From Alphaproteobacteria bacterium (lineage in GTDB: Bacteria > Pseudomonadota > Alphaproteobacteria > UBA8366), in the NCBI GenBank assembly GCA_021774335.1, contig JAJFJD010000009.1:1-64000 (forward strand): a stretch of 64,000 bases of DNA, in the 5' to 3' direction. The position numbers and the translations under genes are program-made. The notes beneath the pieces were generated by a model. The model searched no databases. It saw nothing but the letters and a program-made list of their open reading frames with translations, and was not told where the DNA came from. Positions 23,105-53,909 of this stretch are shown piece after piece; position 1 is the stretch's first letter, and each line of letters begins with the position of its first letter.

Positions 23105-23962
23105 ATGCTAAAACGACTTTTCGCCATGTTGATCCTGGTTTTCGGATGTGGATCGGCTGTTGCCGGCGAGACATTCGTGTTTACCGCTATTCCCGATCAA
23201 GACGAAAGCCGCTTGCAAGAGCGCTTTGGGAAAATCGCGGGCTATTTGTCCAAGGAACTGAATACGACGGTCAAATACGTCCCGGTAAAAAGCTATGCGG
23301 CGGCGGTGACGGCCTTTAAGAACAATCAGGTGCAACTTGCCTGGTTCGGCGGCCTGTCCGGCGTGCGCGCGCGCGCTTCGGTGTCCGGATCGGAAGCGAT
23401 TGCGCAAGGCTACGAGGACCAGTTCTTCGAGACCTATTTCATCGCGAACGAAAAGGCCGGCCTCGCGTCCACTAAAGAGTTCCCGAAGGCTATCGCCGGT
23501 AAGACCTTCACCTTCGGCTCCAAGGGGTCCACGTCGGGCCGGTTGATGCCGGAATTCCACATTCGCCGTAATCTCGGGAAAGCGCCGGACAAGGTGTTCG
23601 AACGGGTCGGCTTCAGCGGCGACCATTCGCGCACGATCGCGTTGGTGCAGTCCGGCGCGTATCAGGTCGGCGCGGTAAACTTCAAGGTCTGGGAAAAGGA
23701 ACTGAAGGCCGGCAAGATCGATCCCAAGAAAGTATCGATCATTTGGAAAACGCCGCACTATCCCGACTATCAGTGGAGCATCCGCGGCGACGTGGACAAA
23801 AAATACGGCGCGGACTTCAAGAAAAAGGTGACGGCGGCGTTGCTGAATATGAAGGACCCGGATCTCCTACAGTCCTTTCCGCGCAGCAAGTTCATTCCGG
23901 CGACCAACGACGACTACAAGATGATCGTGGATACTGGAAAGGAAATCGGTCTGATCGACTGA
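23105..23962 (+). CDS. Periplasmic binding protein of a putative selenate/selenite ABC importer (PhnD family)
   Basis: A 285-residue exported protein. The signal MLKRLFAMLILVFGCGSAVAG is followed by the typical PhnD-family opening FTAIPDQDESRLQERFGK and YLSKELNTTVKYVPVKSY, a binding-site loop AWFGGLSGVRARA, and FGSKGSTSGRLMPE. The family resembles phosphonate-binding PhnD, but the group coupled to selD is predicted to carry a selenium oxyanion. Here the TGA stop overlaps the ATPase ATG (TGATG), and the whole importer leads into SelD, which supports the selenium reading. Substrate inferred from context, not proven. Confidence 0.8.
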   Translation: MLKRLFAMLILVFGCGSAVAGETFVFTAIPDQDESRLQERFGKIAGYLSKELNTTVKYVPVKSYAAAVTAFKNNQVQLAWFGGLSGVRARASVSGSEAIAQGYEDQFFETYFIANEKAGLASTKEFPKAIAGKTFTFGSKGSTSGRLMPEFHIRRNLGKAPDKVFERVGFSGDHSRTIALVQSGAYQVGAVNFKVWEKELKAGKIDPKKVSIIWKTPHYPDYQWSIRGDVDKKYGADFKKKVTAALLNMKDPDLLQSFPRSKFIPATNDDYKMIVDTGKEIGLID

Positions 23963-24618
23963 TGGCTCTTGTCGACCTCAATCTCGCGACCGCGGGCTAT
24001 AACGGCGCGACCGTCCTGCATGACGTGTCATTGTCGATCGAGCGGGGTGAGAAGGTTGCATTGGTCGGCCGAAGCGGGGCGGGAAAATCCACCCTGCTTC
24101 GGCTGATCTTCGAGCGCGTCGACGGAGAGGCTGCCATGGTTCCGCAGGAACATGGCCTCGTTCGCGCGCTCACCGTGTTCCACAACATCTATATGGGCCA
24201 GCTCAACCGCCACAGCACCTGGCGCAACGTGGTCAATCTGGTGCGGCCGATGCAACAGGAAGTCGCGAATGTCCGTGGCGTCGTGGAGAGTCTCGGCCTG
24301 GAGGACGATCTATTTTCTGCCGTCGGGGCGTTGTCTGGCGGTCAGCAGCAACGGACGGCGGTCGGCAGGGCCCTGTATCAGCAGTGCGATATCCTGCTCG
24401 GTGACGAACCCGTGTCAGCGGTCGATGAATATCAGTCCAGGTCAATCCTGAAGAACATTGCCGAGTCCAAGAATACTGTGATTCTGGCAATGCACGATAT
24501 CGATCTGGCGCTCACCTTTTCCGATCGCCTCATCGGGTTGGATGCCGGCCGGATCATCATGGACGAGCCGACGGCGGGCATGAAGGCGTCCGACCTCGAT
24601 CATCTCTATCAAGGCTGA
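23962..24618 (+). CDS. ABC importer ATPase, selenium module
   Basis: A 218-residue ABC ATPase. Walker A GRSGAGKST, signature LSGGQQQR, Walker B DILLGDEP and the H-loop MHD are all present. The Q-loop region (MVPQEHGLVRALTVFHNIYMG) resembles PhnC. The start is the ATG overlapping the binding-protein stop. It follows PhnC-like importers in size and sequence rather than exporters. It is 5 bp ahead of the permease gene; energises uptake across the inner membrane. Confidence 0.88.
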   Translation: MALVDLNLATAGYNGATVLHDVSLSIERGEKVALVGRSGAGKSTLLRLIFERVDGEAAMVPQEHGLVRALTVFHNIYMGQLNRHSTWRNVVNLVRPMQQEVANVRGVVESLGLEDDLFSAVGALSGGQQQRTAVGRALYQQCDILLGDEPVSAVDEYQSRSILKNIAESKNTVILAMHDIDLALTFSDRLIGLDAGRIIMDEPTAGMKASDLDHLYQG

Positions 24619-24623
24619 GCGGC

Positions 24624-26120
24624 ATGCAGGCGGTTTGGCGCTATTCCCCGTCCGTCCGGACCAGCCTGATATTTCTCGGTATCGCGCTTCTATGCCTGAT
24701 CTTCGCGGACATCTCGATCTCGACGGTGAACCCCTGGACCGAGATGGGCCGGCTGCTGCTCGGCATCGTGACGCCGGATTTCCTGGCCACGGACAGCCTG
24801 CTCAACGCGGTGCTGCAGACCATCGCCTTTGCGATCCTCGGTGTGGTCGTCGGAAATATCGCGGGATTTTTCCTGGCGCTGGTGTTTCATCTTCGCGCCG
24901 TGCGGGTCGGTTGCGCCTTCGTGCGCGCGATCCACGAGTTGTTCTGGGCGCTGATCTTCCTGCAGATCTTCGGGTTGTCGCCGATCACCGGAATCCTGGC
25001 CATCGGCATCCCCTATGCGGGGATCATCGCGAAGGTATATGCCGAGATCATGGAGGAGGCGGACACGACGCCGCTAAAATCGGTGCCGCCGGGCAGCACG
25101 GCCGCCTCCGTTTTCATTTTCGTGCGGCTGCCGGATGTCTGGGCGCATTTCAAGACCTACTCGCTTTACCGGCTCGAATGCGGTTTGCGGTCGAGCGCGA
25201 TCCTCGGTTTCGTCGGCCTGCCGACACTTGGTTATTATCTGGAGACGGCGTTCCGGCAGGGCCAGTATTCCGAAGTCTCCGCGCTGCTGATCCTCTTCTA
25301 CATCGTGATCGCAACCATGCGGGTGTGGATGCATCGCAACCTGTTGCCGCTGTATGTGTTGGCGGCGATCCTGCTGTTGCCCTGGGGCGCCAGTGAAATC
25401 TATGCCGACAATATCGTCCGGTTCTTTACCCAAGACATCGTTCCGCAGCCGCTCCGCGAGGGCGTATTCGATGCCACTGCGCTGGCCGGGTTCTGGGATT
25501 GGCTGTCCGTGCTGTTCGTCGAACAGGCGCTGCCCGGCGCGATCGATACGCTGCAACTGACGATGATCGCGCTGGTCGCGACCGGCGTCCTGGCGCTGAT
25601 CTTCTTTCCGCTGCTGTCACCGTTGTTCTTCGGCCGTGGCGGCAGACTAGGCGGGCATGTGTTCCTGGTCATCGTTCGGTCCACGCCGGAATACATCTTG
25701 GCCTATGTCTGCCTGCAGCTCTGGGGTCCGTCGATGCTGCCCGCGATCATCGCGCTATCGCTGCATAATGGTGCGATCATCGCGCACCTGATCGGCCGCT
25801 ATACGGAACATATGAAAGTCCGGGTCGATGCGCCGCGCGGGCTCAATCTCTACTTCTATGAATCGGTGCCGCGCGTCTACGGACAGCTTCTGGCGTTTCT
25901 GTTCTATCGCTGGGAAGTGATTTTACGCGAGACCGCGATTCTGGGCATGTTGGGCATCGCAACGCTTGGCTTCTATGTCGACAGTGCCTTTGCGGATATC
26001 CGGCTCGACCGCGCGTTGGTGCTGATTTTGTTTACGGCCGGCCTGAATATCTGCGTCGATGCGTTGTCGCGCCATATTCGTGCTCGGCTGCGTCTTAAGA
26101 CCACCATCGAACATGGGTGA
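24624..26120 (+). CDS. Double-length ABC importer permease (two fused PhnE-like domains)
   Basis: A 498-residue membrane protein in which two BPD-type permease domains of about 250 residues are joined. Half one has LLNAVLQTIAFAILGVVVGN, an EAA-like cytosolic loop (GIPYAGIIAKVYAEIMEEAD) and GLRSSAILGFVGLPTLGYYL. Half two repeats the pattern with LPGAIDTLQLTMIALVATGV, a loop at SLHNGAIIAHLIGRYTEH, and RETAILGMLGIATLGFYVDS. One chain therefore provides the whole channel. Its stop is overlapped by the GTG of the selD fusion (GTGA), implying translational coupling. Confidence 0.88.
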   Translation: MQAVWRYSPSVRTSLIFLGIALLCLIFADISISTVNPWTEMGRLLLGIVTPDFLATDSLLNAVLQTIAFAILGVVVGNIAGFFLALVFHLRAVRVGCAFVRAIHELFWALIFLQIFGLSPITGILAIGIPYAGIIAKVYAEIMEEADTTPLKSVPPGSTAASVFIFVRLPDVWAHFKTYSLYRLECGLRSSAILGFVGLPTLGYYLETAFRQGQYSEVSALLILFYIVIATMRVWMHRNLLPLYVLAAILLLPWGASEIYADNIVRFFTQDIVPQPLREGVFDATALAGFWDWLSVLFVEQALPGAIDTLQLTMIALVATGVLALIFFPLLSPLFFGRGGRLGGHVFLVIVRSTPEYILAYVCLQLWGPSMLPAIIALSLHNGAIIAHLIGRYTEHMKVRVDAPRGLNLYFYESVPRVYGQLLAFLFYRWEVILRETAILGMLGIATLGFYVDSAFADIRLDRALVLILFTAGLNICVDALSRHIRARLRLKTTIEHG

Positions 26121-28390
26121 TCCTCGTGCAATCAACGACACCGATCATTAAAGATCTCGTTCTCGTCGGCGGCGGACACAGTCATGTCGGCGTGCTGCGG
26201 TCCTTTGGCATGAAGCCGATACCGGGCGTCCGCCTGACGGTCCTCTGCCGTGATGTGGATACGCCGTATTCCGGCATGTTGCCCGGGCTGGTCGCGGGGC
26301 ATTACACCTTCGAGGAAACCCATATCGACCTTGGCCCGCTGGCCCGCTTCGCCAATGCGCGGTTCTACAACGACGATGTCATCGGCATCGATCCGCGGCA
26401 GCGGCTGGTGATGTGCAAGGACCGCCCGCCGGTTTCCTATGATCTGCTGTCGATCAACATCGGCTCGGCCCCGGCAACCTGGGAGACGCCAGGCGCCGAA
26501 GGCAATGTGGTGCCGGTGAAGCCGATCAATCGGTTCGTCGCGCATTGGGAACGCTTGCGCGAACGCATTCTGCTGCGCGAGGACCCGGTGCGGATCGGCA
26601 TCGTCGGTGGCGGCGCGGGTGGCGTCGAACTGCTGCTCGCCATCCAGTTCCGGCTGAAGACGCTGTTGGCTGAACAGGGACGGACCGACGCGCATCTGGA
26701 CTATCACCTGATCAGCGAAGAGCCGGACATTCTGACCACGCATAACCCGCTCGCCCGCTCCAAGTTCCGGCGCATCTTCGGCGAACGCGGCATCAACTTC
26801 CATGCGGACACACGGATCGAGTCCGTGGCGCCCGGCAAGGTCCAGGCTGCCAACGGCGAGACCATCGCATTGGATGAAATCCTGTGGGTGACGCGGGCCG
26901 GCGCGGCCTCTTGGATCAAGGAATCGGGGTTGGCCGTCGATGACTACGGCTTCATGCAGGTCGGCGACACGTTGCAATCGACGTCGCACCCGGAAATTTT
27001 CGGCGCGGGCGATATCGCAGCGATGGTGAACCATCCGCGCCCGAAAGCCGGCGTCTTCGCGGTGCGGCAAGGGCCGCCGCTGACCCGCAACCTGCGGCGC
27101 TTGCTGGTCGGCAAGTCGGCCCGGCCGTTCACGCCGCAGCGTGAATTCCTCAGCCTGATCAGCACCGGTGACAAATACGCCGTGGCGTCGCGCTCCAAAT
27201 GGTCGGTGGAAGGCAAGCTGGTGTGGCGCTGGAAGGATTGGATCGACCAGCGGTTCATGAAGAAATTCAACGAACTGCCGGAGATGGAGACGGAGGAGAA
27301 GTCCGACATTCCGCATGGTTTGGCCGGCGAAGAGGTGATCAAGGAAATCTCCGCCGTCGCCATGCGCTGCGGCGGATGCGGCGCCAAGGTTGGCGCGACG
27401 GTGTTGCAGCGGGCGCTGTCGCAATTGAAGCCGGTGGCGCGCGACGACGTGCTGATCGGATTGCACGAACCGGACGATGCGGCCGTGGTCGAGGTGCCGC
27501 CCGGCAAGGTGATGGTGCACTCGGTCGATGCGTTCCGGGCGATCGTCGACGATCCCTATCTGTTCGGCCGCATCGCCGCCAACCACAGTCTCGGCGATAT
27601 CTATGCGATGGGTGCGGACCCACAGACCGCGCTCGCCATCGCCACCGTGCCCTATGGGTTGGAAGAGAAGGTCGAGGATGTGTTGTCGCAGATGCTGACC
27701 GGCGCGATGGAGGTGCTGCAGGAGTCGAACACGTCCCTGGTCGGCGGCCATACGAGCGAGGGCGCGGAGCTTTCGCTCGGTTTCTCCGTGAACGGCTTGA
27801 TCGACCGCGAGAAGGTCCTGCGCAAGGGCGGTATGCAGCCGGGCGACCGGCTGGTGCTGACCAAGGCGATTGGCACGGGCACGCTGTTCGCCGCCGACAT
27901 GCGGTTGAAGGCCAAAGGCCAGTGGATCAAGGACGCAACCGCGTCGATGGTGCAGTCGAACTACAAGGGCGCGCAATGTCTGTCCGACCACGGGGCCCGC
28001 GCCTGCACCGACGTGACCGGATTCGGGTTGCTGGGTCATTTGGTCGAGATGACCAAGCCCTCCGGCGTCGATGTGGAACTCGATCTTGGCGCCATCCCGT
28101 ATCTCGACGGCGCCCGCGAGACGGTGGCGGCCGGCATCACCAGCACCTTGCAGCCGCAGAACCTACGGCTCCGTCGCGCCATATCGAACGTTGCCGAGAT
28201 GGGCGAGGACCCGCGCTTTCCGCTGATATTCGATCCACAGACGGCCGGGGGCCTGCTGGCCAGCGTGCCGCAGGATCGGGCCGAGGATTGCGTCGGCGCA
28301 TTGCGCGACCTGGGGTATGACCGGACGGCGATCATCGGCACCGTGTTGCCCGAGGGCAATCAGCTCGAACCGATTACGGTGCGCGGCTGA
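26117..28390 (+). CDS. selD: NADH-dehydrogenase-like / selenide, water dikinase (SelD) fusion
   Basis: A 757-residue two-domain protein. Residues 12-390 form a FAD/NAD(P) oxidoreductase (LVLVGGGHSHVGVLR at the FAD site, IGIVGGGAGGVELL at the second dinucleotide site, EIFGAGDIAAM). Residues about 410-757 are SelD, which makes selenophosphate from selenide and ATP. Its glycine-rich loop R-C418-G-G-C421-G-A-K424 holds the catalytic Cys and Lys, and HSVDAFRAIVDDPY, VGGHTSEG and CTDVTGFGLLGH follow. No in-frame TGA suggests selenocysteine at Cys418. GTG start overlaps the permease stop. The oxidoreductase may reduce the imported selenium oxyanion or deliver selenide; that is inference. Confidence 0.93.
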   Translation: MILVQSTTPIIKDLVLVGGGHSHVGVLRSFGMKPIPGVRLTVLCRDVDTPYSGMLPGLVAGHYTFEETHIDLGPLARFANARFYNDDVIGIDPRQRLVMCKDRPPVSYDLLSINIGSAPATWETPGAEGNVVPVKPINRFVAHWERLRERILLREDPVRIGIVGGGAGGVELLLAIQFRLKTLLAEQGRTDAHLDYHLISEEPDILTTHNPLARSKFRRIFGERGINFHADTRIESVAPGKVQAANGETIALDEILWVTRAGAASWIKESGLAVDDYGFMQVGDTLQSTSHPEIFGAGDIAAMVNHPRPKAGVFAVRQGPPLTRNLRRLLVGKSARPFTPQREFLSLISTGDKYAVASRSKWSVEGKLVWRWKDWIDQRFMKKFNELPEMETEEKSDIPHGLAGEEVIKEISAVAMRCGGCGAKVGATVLQRALSQLKPVARDDVLIGLHEPDDAAVVEVPPGKVMVHSVDAFRAIVDDPYLFGRIAANHSLGDIYAMGADPQTALAIATVPYGLEEKVEDVLSQMLTGAMEVLQESNTSLVGGHTSEGAELSLGFSVNGLIDREKVLRKGGMQPGDRLVLTKAIGTGTLFAADMRLKAKGQWIKDATASMVQSNYKGAQCLSDHGARACTDVTGFGLLGHLVEMTKPSGVDVELDLGAIPYLDGARETVAAGITSTLQPQNLRLRRAISNVAEMGEDPRFPLIFDPQTAGGLLASVPQDRAEDCVGALRDLGYDRTAIIGTVLPEGNQLEPITVRG

Positions 28391-28395
28391 CGGTT

Positions 28396-29361
28396 CTAGG
28401 TGAGCGTCGTTAGGAGCGACCGCCAAGCCGCTTCTTCATGCTCCGGCTTGAACAATTCCGCCCGCGCGCGGCATTGCCGCGTCAGCGTCTTCAAATAGTC
28501 GCGGTCGTGTTCGACCCGGTCCAGGCGGTTTGCGAGGGCGGCCGTGTCGCCGACCGGGTAGTAGCCTGCATAGTCGTCGCCGAGCAGGCCGATCGATCCT
28601 GAAATGTCCGATGCAATGACCGGCACATCCGCCGCGACCGCTTCCGACAGTACATTTGCACCGCCTTCCATGACCGAACTCAACACCATCGCGTGCGACG
28701 AATCGAAAAGCCGACGTACCTGCCATCCCGGCGCCTCGCCGCGCCAATCGTATCGTGGGTTGGCGGCCATTTCTTGCCGTGCGCGCTCGGCCCAGCTTTC
28801 GTCATGCGCCTTGCCGAGATGCACGATGCGAATACGGGAATCGGCGGGCAACTGCCGCGCGGCCTCGGCGGCGCGCAGCGGATCTTTCTCCTCGCGCAGA
28901 TGGCCGATAACGCAGATATCGACAGTGCGGCGGGACGGGCGGCGCGTTCGGTTGAGCGGCAATGCCGATTGATGGACGACATGAAGCTTGTCATGGAACC
29001 GGTCCGGAATATCCCGATGCACCAGACCGTGCAGGCAAACCAGTGCGTCGGCGATATCCATCGAGTGATGGGTCTCTTCGGGATGACTTTGCTGGAATTT
29101 GTAAATGTCGGTTCCCGCCAGCAGGATGATCAGCGGCCGATCCGGATACCGTTCATGAAACCGGACAATCGATTCGGCGCTGCGCCAAGCGTGGACGGCG
29201 ATCATCGCGTCGACCGGTTCGTTCTCATACTCGGTGGCGACGATAACTTGATGCCCCAAACGGCGTAGGATGTCGTGCCACCGCACCGCGGTCGTTCGGT
29301 TGCCGTTGCGCGACTGTTTGCCCGCGGGCGTGATAAGACTAATCTTCAGGCTGTTTCGCAT
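28396..29361 (-). CDS. senB: Selenosugar synthase SenB (GT-B glycosyltransferase)
   Basis: A 321-residue GT4-like protein. Its opening, ISLITPAGKQSRNGNRTTAV with RWHDILRRLGHQV, is the signature of the selenoneine-linked glycosyltransferase family, which joins selenophosphate to a UDP-sugar to give a selenosugar. The donor half shows ICVIGHLREEKDP and the acidic catalytic motif SSVMEGGANVLSEAVA. It lies 6 bp from the selD stop (convergent) and has its start codon only 14 bp from senA's. Read with SelD and SenA, the assignment is strong although substrate use is taken from the family. Confidence 0.87.
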   Translation of the reverse strand: MRNSLKISLITPAGKQSRNGNRTTAVRWHDILRRLGHQVIVATEYENEPVDAMIAVHAWRSAESIVRFHERYPDRPLIILLAGTDIYKFQQSHPEETHHSMDIADALVCLHGLVHRDIPDRFHDKLHVVHQSALPLNRTRRPSRRTVDICVIGHLREEKDPLRAAEAARQLPADSRIRIVHLGKAHDESWAERARQEMAANPRYDWRGEAPGWQVRRLFDSSHAMVLSSVMEGGANVLSEAVAADVPVIASDISGSIGLLGDDYAGYYPVGDTAALANRLDRVEHDRDYLKTLTRQCRARAELFKPEHEEAAWRSLLTTLT

Positions 29362-29375
29362 TAGATGGTTTGCCC

Positions 29376-30689
29376 ATGACTGAACCCGTCTCCACGTCCC
29401 GCCTTATCGACATGATGACGAGCGCGCGCCGCCGCACACTGGAGTTGGTCCAGGGGCTGACGCCGGACCAGTTCATTGGCCCGAAACTGCCGACGCTGAA
29501 TCCGTTGATTTGGGAAATTGGGCATGTCGGCTGGTTCTATGAAAATTTCATCCTGCGGCGATTGTACAACCAAGAGCCCATGCTCGCGACAGGAGATGCG
29601 CTTTATGACTCCATCGCGATTGCGCATGAAACGCGGTGGGATTTGCCGGTTCTGCCGCTGAGCGAGATTCTCGCCTATATGCAGGACGTGGAGGATGCGT
29701 TGATCGACCGCCTGGGCAACAAGGACATGGCGGACGAACGGCACAGCTATCTGTATCAGTTCACGGTCTATCATGAAGACATGCACACCGAGGCCTTTAC
29801 CTGGGCGCGGCAAACGCTGAGGTATCCGACGCCGGTTTTCGAAGGCGGCCCCGTCGATCGGGGTGTGCCGGACACCGGGTCGTTGGCCGGCGATGTCGTG
29901 ATCATGGGCGGCACATTCCGGATGGGCGCCGAGAAGGACGCGCCCTTCCTGTTCGACAACGAGAAATGGGCGCGCCCGGTGACGGTCGCGCCGTTCAAGA
30001 TGGCGCGGGCGCCGGTCACGAACGGCGAATTCGCTGATTTCGTCGCGGACGGCGGCTATCAGAAGGAAAAATTTTGGGACGCGGATGGTTGGGCATGGCG
30101 GCAGGAAGCGGCGGCGGAGCATCCGATCTACTGGGTTCCGGACGAGCACGGCGGATGGGGCGTTCGGCGGTTCGATCAAATCGCGGACCTGCCGCTCGAC
30201 CAGCCGGTCATCCATGTCTGCTGGCACGAGGCAAACGCCTATTGCCGTTGGGCCGGGCGGCGTTTGCCGACCGAGGCGGAATGGGAATTGGCCGCGACCA
30301 CGGTGCCGGAAACGACCGACGGTGTCTTGCAGAAGCGTCGCTATCCCTGGGGTGACGAGGAACCAACCCCCGACCGTGCCAATCTCGATGGGTTCGCGCT
30401 CGGCTGCGTCGACGTCACGGCGCATCCGGCAGGTGACAGCGCCTATGGCTGCCGTCAGATGGTCGGCAATGTTTGGGAGTGGACGGAAGACGTCTTCAAG
30501 CCGTTCCCCGGTTTCGCGCCGGACGACTACAAGGAATACTCCCAGCCGCTGTTCGATTCGACGCGTGTGTTGCGGGGCGGCGCGTGGACGACGCGCGGGC
30601 GGATGGTCAGCGCCCTTTACCGCAACTACTTCGGCCCGGACCGCCGCGACGTGTTCGCCGGGTTCCGGACCTGCGCCGCGACAGACTAA
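29376..30689 (+). CDS. senA: Selenoneine synthase SenA (EgtB-like)
   Basis: A 437-residue non-heme iron enzyme joining hercynine to a selenosugar. An N-terminal DinB-like domain supplies the iron ligands His50 (IGHVGWF), His133 and His137 (YHEDMHTEA), numbers almost identical to those of the sulfoxide synthase EgtB. The C-terminal formylglycine-generating-enzyme-like domain begins VVIMGGTFRMGAEKDAP and ends VLRGGAWTTR and NYFGPDRRDVFAGFR. The frame opens at TTG 29370; I use ATG 29376. The TAA shares CTAA with the convergent acyl-CoA synthetase. No EgtD (hercynine) gene is in the window, so hercynine must be made elsewhere. Confidence 0.87.
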   Translation: MTEPVSTSRLIDMMTSARRRTLELVQGLTPDQFIGPKLPTLNPLIWEIGHVGWFYENFILRRLYNQEPMLATGDALYDSIAIAHETRWDLPVLPLSEILAYMQDVEDALIDRLGNKDMADERHSYLYQFTVYHEDMHTEAFTWARQTLRYPTPVFEGGPVDRGVPDTGSLAGDVVIMGGTFRMGAEKDAPFLFDNEKWARPVTVAPFKMARAPVTNGEFADFVADGGYQKEKFWDADGWAWRQEAAAEHPIYWVPDEHGGWGVRRFDQIADLPLDQPVIHVCWHEANAYCRWAGRRLPTEAEWELAATTVPETTDGVLQKRRYPWGDEEPTPDRANLDGFALGCVDVTAHPAGDSAYGCRQMVGNVWEWTEDVFKPFPGFAPDDYKEYSQPLFDSTRVLRGGAWTTRGRMVSALYRNYFGPDRRDVFAGFRTCAATD

Positions 30690-53708: not shown

Positions 53709-53739
53709 TCAAATAGATCAGGGCTTCCAACGGACGCTC

Positions 53740-53800
53740 CGACCTTTTAGCTGAGTTCTTTACCGTGGCCGCAAGCCGGTCGGGCCAAATCACCACGTGG
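53740..53800 (-). promoter_or_regulatory. SAM-II (metA-type) riboswitch upstream of metZ
   Basis: Read on the minus strand from about 53800: CCACGTGGTGATTTG, then CCGACCGGCTTGC, then GGCCACGGTAAAGAACTC and AGCTAAAAGGT. These are the invariant blocks of the SAM-II pseudoknot (TGGTGATTTG; CGGCTTGC; GCCACG-TAAA-AACTC-GCTAAA), in order and spacing. SAM-II elements occur in Alphaproteobacteria and switch off methionine genes when S-adenosylmethionine is plentiful. The metZ start is about 80 nt further downstream. Confidence 0.9.
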
Positions 53801-53909
53801 CCAAACTTTGGGCGGATCGAAGGAAATTGTCAACAGAATCTTCCATCGGCGGCTCGGCAGGATACACTCATCGGTGGGGACGCAGACCGAGTTTTGGAGA
53901 ATACAGGCA

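Follow-up and report, generated by a model that had tools for sequence, protein, structure and literature searches.

A gene module that probably links selenium import to selenoneine synthesis in an alphaproteobacterium

The 64,000-nucleotide stretch of DNA considered here (the window: positions 1 to 64,000 of contig JAJFJD010000009.1, assembly GCA_021774335.1) comes from an alphaproteobacterium of the lineage UBA8366. Between positions 23105 and 30689 it carries six genes that quite probably make up a module leading from selenium import to the antioxidant selenoneine. Such a module had been proposed from the letters of this stretch (the original prediction), and all six genes were found at the predicted coordinates or within a few bases of them:

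23105..23962, plus strand: periplasmic substrate-binding protein, PhnD-like, of family TIGR04553 (382 bits against a cut-off of 250)
23962..24618, plus strand: ABC ATPase, PhnC-like (PF00005; TIGR02315 171 bits, below the cut-off of 266)
24624..26120, plus strand: double permease, two PhnE-type membrane domains in one chain (two TIGR01097 stretches)
26117..28390, plus strand: NDH-SelD fusion, Cys type (TIGR03169, TIGR00476)
28396..29361, minus strand: SenB, selenosugar synthase, convergent with selD (TIGR04348, 422 bits against 300)
29376..30689, plus strand: SenA, non-heme iron selenoneine synthase, divergent from SenB (NF041186, 485 bits against 420)

The genes are identified by their scores against family models, their linkage is conserved among relatives, and the genome encodes an EgtD (G000:C4:57435-58337, 412 bits against 291). 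A genome-wide search also found selA and selB on contig C4, a selenocysteine tRNA (tRNA-Sec) at C4:182778 and an EgtB-like protein on contig C55; SelU was not found in this genome. As judged from protein families and gene context, the substrate-binding protein would capture selenium as an oxyanion, selenite being the likeliest, and the ATPase and double permease would bring the ion in. Reduction to selenide could be carried out by cellular thiols and/or by the NDH domain, for which a role in selenium reduction is thus postulated, and the fused SelD would produce selenophosphate. SenB would then transfer selenium onto a UDP-sugar, and SenA would join the selenosugar to hercynine, supplied by the EgtD encoded elsewhere in the genome, to give selenoneine. 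In the window organism the importer would probably also feed selenocysteine synthesis by way of a second SelD.

The conservation of this arrangement was followed through 385 genomes of the window's class. The importer's binding protein exceeds the cut-off in 18 of them, with a clean gap in scores (at least 359 versus at most 222 bits), SenB is present in 14, and 11 genomes have both. In all 11, which span five families, importer and SenB lie a few kilobases apart in the same order and on the same strands. The probability of such co-occurrence by chance is 1.8e-14 by genome and 1.0e-5 by family, the latter being given because related genomes are not independent. In one genome (G306) the SenB end falls at a contig edge, and a complete SenB with SenA lies at the end of another contig. 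Among 21 genomes searched, SenA exceeds its cut-off in the 14 with SenB and in no others, and EgtD is present in all 14; moreover, egtD is joined to senA in G187 and G359, directly after senA, and in L156 and L161. SelD occurs in 17 of the 18 importer genomes, as against 83 of the 385 overall (p=1.7e-11), and inspection of the listed places showed no SelD closer than 20 kb to any weaker PhnD-type paralog of the SelD-bearing genomes. The comparison of neighbourhoods thus bears out the recurrence of the importer-sen layout. The idea that uptake, activation and selenoneine genes travel as a unit stands in that their grouping is conserved, and must be qualified in that the importer elsewhere sits without sen genes.

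How closely are the genes coupled in the window itself? The original prediction spoke of overlaps or 5-bp gaps and did not mention that SenB is inverted; coupling of this kind is confined to the first four genes. The plus-strand run of binding protein, ATPase, double permease and NDH-SelD fusion (23105-28390) is tight: the ATPase ATG overlaps the stop codon of the binding protein by one base (TGATG), 5 bp separate ATPase and permease, and the fusion starts with a GTG at 26117 that gives a 4-base overlap with the permease stop (GTGA). The stop codons of SelD and SenB are 5 bp apart on opposed strands, and the SenB and SenA start codons diverge with 14 bp between them, the best SenA start being an ATG at 29376 (a TTG at 29370 is also open). 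Judged from the strands, the locus would comprise at least three transcription units and not one operon. An Rfam search gave no match within or near the module; a SAM_alpha riboswitch (RF00521, 62 bits) at window positions 53727-53806, minus strand, is unrelated to it.

Some relatives depart from the window in the genes found around selD, senB and senA. In several, the selD-senB interval holds an unrelated extra gene (L075:1215-1922, L083:281-1393, L071:6427-8128, L073:14670-15563), which differs from one relative to the next (PEP-CTERM, TPR, DUF4019-like or unknown). In three genomes of one genus (G210, G378 and G300; L071-L073), an amidohydrolase gene is in line with SenB, and genes for an AllG-like protein and for the large subunit of a molybdenum hydroxylase lie nearby. 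SenB has no adjacent SenA in these genomes, and the thought that they make a different compound was dropped, since each encodes SenA elsewhere (L101-L103), beside genes that by eye resemble CoxG and CoxL; no methyltransferase-like neighbour was noticed at these SenA sites. A SenA/EgtB-like paralogue in which R and L replace two iron-binding histidines was seen at G104:C15 (L108:4960-6300). The suggestion that the module is a freshly transferred cassette finds no support, as colinearity between the window and the stretch from a sister genome (L115) extends past the module, at 86-88%.

The fusion protein consists of an FAD/NAD(P) oxidoreductase domain (about residues 13-384; 496 bits against 310 in the NDH model TIGR03169) followed by a selenophosphate synthetase domain (about residues 416-757; 306 against 125 in the SelD model TIGR00476). 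It does not belong to TIGR04369, 'fusion_not_SelD' (480 bits, below 700). Its Cys421 and Lys424 align with Cys17 and Lys20 of E. coli SelD, so that the catalytic pair is kept, and the conserved segments DD, GDIYAMG and TDVTGFG are present. NDH-SelD fusions (COG1252-COG0709) have long been known (PMC1273633, PMC2432076) and have the same domain order; the window copy differs in being joined to importer and sen genes.

In a second SelD gene of the window genome (G000:C38:4650-5579) the catalytic codon is an in-frame TGA (HGGG-TGA-GCK), and the product is probably a selenoprotein. The sister genome (L115, the same as G412) likewise holds both SelDs and selA, which makes contamination an unlikely source of the second gene. 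All eight TGA-type SelDs of the class survey fall in importer-carrying genomes. In six relatives (G210, G378, G300, G104, G113 and G306) the fusion is the sole SelD found, despite the presence of selA, and there it must supply selenocysteine too; in the window genome, there may be a division of labour between the Sec-type SelD and the Cys-type fusion beside the sen genes. The proposal that SelD serves more than selenocysteine here is upheld by the separate TGA-type SelD, by relatives that carry the module without selA, and by the joining of egtD to senA.

Is the importer tied to selenoneine alone? For the 80 best named relatives, the neighbouring genes were read on the fetched stretches. A known selenium gene or an NDH/SelD gene lies on the stretch in 53 cases: 27 have SenB (2 of these also SelU), 17 have SelU without SenB, 2 have selenocysteine genes, and 7 have SelD/NDH only. 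Gammaproteobacteria use other gene orders, with the importer after senA (L143), after senB with egtD beside senA (L156, L161), or beside senB (L162, L172, L187). On a tree of the binding proteins the sen label must change five times or more along well supported branches, which implies that the importer-sen link was gained or lost repeatedly. In G007 the binding protein, ATPase, permease, selA and selB stand in a row; in G123, selA-selB lies about 6 kb upstream; and a plasmid copy of the importer in Paracoccus marcusii adjoins fdnG-fdxH-fdhE-selA-selB. In four other plasmid copies that were opened selA/selB was not nearby, and one of these adjoins a glutathione peroxidase gene. At two loci a SelU gene is found no more than about 2 kb from senA (L147:12508, L169:17802), so that sen genes, the selenouridine trait and the importer can share a locus.

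SelD is the common denominator, which points to selenium. The claim of an importer dedicated to selenoneine has to be given up, considering that relatives place it by selD-selU, by selA-selB, or alone. The best reading is that of a general selenium importer, which in the window would feed SelD, SenB and SenA.

The importer proteins resemble those of the PhnCDE phosphonate transporter in having the same three kinds of component, and differ in that the PhnD, PhnC and PhnE equivalog cut-offs are all missed and that the permease is duplicated in one chain. The binding protein scores 132 bits against the 261 of the PhnD equivalog TIGR03431, and the permease scores 204 bits in TIGR01097, slightly under the cut-off of 216.7. 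The two permease halves align with a score of 153, as against a shuffled maximum of 55, and hence represent a duplicated PhnE-type protein. The ATPase has a Walker A motif (GRSGAGKS) and a signature motif (LSGGQ). By family name the binding protein falls well within TIGR04553, which NCBIfam/RefSeq calls 'putative selenate ABC transporter substrate-binding protein', and its Paracoccus plasmid relatives carry the RefSeq name 'putative selenate ABC transporter'. The model is a hypothetical equivalog for which no experiment was found.

The two sen enzymes keep the residues expected of them. In SenB, aligned with 8jjn, the equivalents of N20, T23 and K158 and the EGGA(H/N)V motif are retained, the H of EGGAHV being N; these residues have been shown to matter (PMC10891094). 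SenA has the iron triad H50/H133/H137, together with a SenA-type HExMH motif (HEDMH), H84/R87/W88 and NxF; beyond the triad, its residues are of SenA/OvsA type rather than EgtB type. EgtB identity is further contradicted by a score of 339 against 360 in TIGR03440 and by the absence from HEDMH of the Gln of HExQH.

Several observations weigh against the module as proposed. The window genome is a draft, with 97% completeness and 7% contamination, although the sister genome shows the same SelDs and selA. The importer also occurs without neighbouring selenium genes: no known selenium gene lies on the stretch in the remaining 27 of the 80 relatives, and while SelD is encoded elsewhere in 22 of these genomes, it was not found in the other 5, which are probably small or incomplete metagenome-assembled genomes. 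The nearest solved structures to the binding protein are picocyanobacterial PhnD1 proteins (PDB 7s6g and 5lq5; 42% and 40% identity), and every pocket residue is common to the window protein and this phosphite- and phosphate-binding protein. The same PhnD1 proteins score 334 and 297 bits in TIGR04553, so that the model alone cannot separate selenium from phosphorus binders, and its name was dropped as proof of a selenium substrate. Finally, the best PDB match of SenA is OvsA (308 bits), followed by Variovorax SenA (211 bits), and OvsA passes the NCBI SenA model NF041186 (436 against 420); the NCBI name was accordingly dropped as settling selenoneine.

One alternative is that the importer serves chiefly selenocysteine synthesis and that its sen neighbourhood is incidental. 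The window genome does hold selA, selB, tRNA-Sec and a Sec-position SelD, and the importer adjoins selA-selB in G007 and P. marcusii. However, selA was not found in 11 of the 19 named genomes with both sen genes and importer, including G124 and the isolate Marinobacter algicola DG893. Many of the selA-less genomes are draft metagenome assemblies in which a single absence is weak, and more weight attaches to the overall pattern. G124 has importer, SelD, SenB, SenA and EgtD, and in it selU and a strong tRNA-Sec were missing along with selA. In the window, moreover, the importer overlaps the SelD fusion by four bases and faces senBA. This account is therefore unlikely.

A somewhat less probable alternative is that the importer carries phosphite, phosphate or a simple phosphonate and merely lies beside selenium genes. 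PhnD1 binds phosphite and phosphate through a Tyr, a Ser-Thr-Ser motif, a His, an Asp and a capping Tyr (PMC5700983, PMC10284923). The corresponding Y64, S142-T143-S144, H174, D221 and capping Y222 of the window protein are identical and kept in 96-98 of 98 aligned sequences, and D31 and N192 likewise agree with PhnD1 of Synechococcus/Prochlorococcus. All ligand contacts are thus the same. The difference lies beside the STS motif, where the selenium-linked proteins have K140-G141 and PhnD1 has Glu and Ser/Asn, and these two positions are candidates for a change of specificity. Against a phosphorus substrate, the importer is nearly confined to SelD-bearing genomes and is linked repeatedly, in varied arrangements, to three SelD-dependent traits, and no phosphorus genes were recognised in ten stand-alone importer neighbourhoods read by eye. 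PhnD1 itself offers little help to this account: it binds phosphite, yet the strains cannot grow on phosphite, and its physiological role is unsettled (PMC10284923). Its score above the TIGR04553 cut-off means either that the model is too broad or that PhnD1 handles selenium.

Given the genome context, the imported substrate is very probably a selenium oxyanion. Selenite is trigonal with three oxygens, and selenate is tetrahedral. PhnD1 requires a ligand with three or more oxygens arranged trigonally (PMC10284923), a shape that selenite fits. Selenite is for that reason favoured over selenate, in spite of the family name, but the choice is a guess from pocket similarity.

It is also improbable that the product is another selenometabolite such as ovoselenol, made by a SenA of OvsA type. 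In favour of it, besides the OvsA scores above, the tree, with the one OvsA sequence available, does not split OvsA from SenA. Against it, the TIGR04373 signature (cut-off 71) is passed by the window protein (85) and Variovorax SenA (94) and failed by OvsA (57), the HExMH and NxF residues agree with SenA and not OvsA, egtD adjoins senA in a number of relatives and occurs in all 14 SenB genomes, and a methyltransferase gene such as would be expected was not noticed beside senA. The motif residues and the egtD linkage thus favour selenoneine over ovoselenol.

How much of the locus is new? The published sen cluster (Kayrouz 2022, as related in PMC9814287 and PMC10891094) consists of senA, senB and senC/selD in Variovorax paradoxus. 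The window resembles it in having SelD, SenB and SenA together, with catalytic residues kept and hercynine expected from EgtD. It differs in having a three-gene importer upstream of selD, an NDH-fused SelD, and a senB that is inverted and lies between selD and senA. The original prediction held that the whole was not known as a described unit, which is too broad, considering that SelD-SenB-SenA clustering is published, the fusion long known and the binding protein already named by NCBI; the attachment of the importer survives as the new part, and the founding sen and ovoselenol papers may contain an earlier mention of it.

The module is a strong candidate for encoding a bacterial selenium importer. 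Until now, bacteria have been described as having no specific one. Perhaps this missing importer, dedicated to selenium (selenite) and of high affinity, is the TIGR04553 transporter, which would be common to the selenoneine, selenouridine and selenocysteine traits and might include the picocyanobacterial PhnDCE; to this proposition we would give slightly less than even weight. If it is true, the affinity of PhnDCE for phosphite would be a by-product of the like shape of selenite. A selenium role for PhnDCE seems worth testing, as an NDH-SelD homologue has been reported in Prochlorococcus and Synechococcus, and ybbB in cyanobacteria (PMC1273633). One transporter family tracks SelD across lineages and is physically joined to three selenium-using pathways. 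Proteins that now bear the label of phosphonate or phosphite binder may in fact handle selenium, and a candidate selenium supply line is built into many selenoneine gene clusters.

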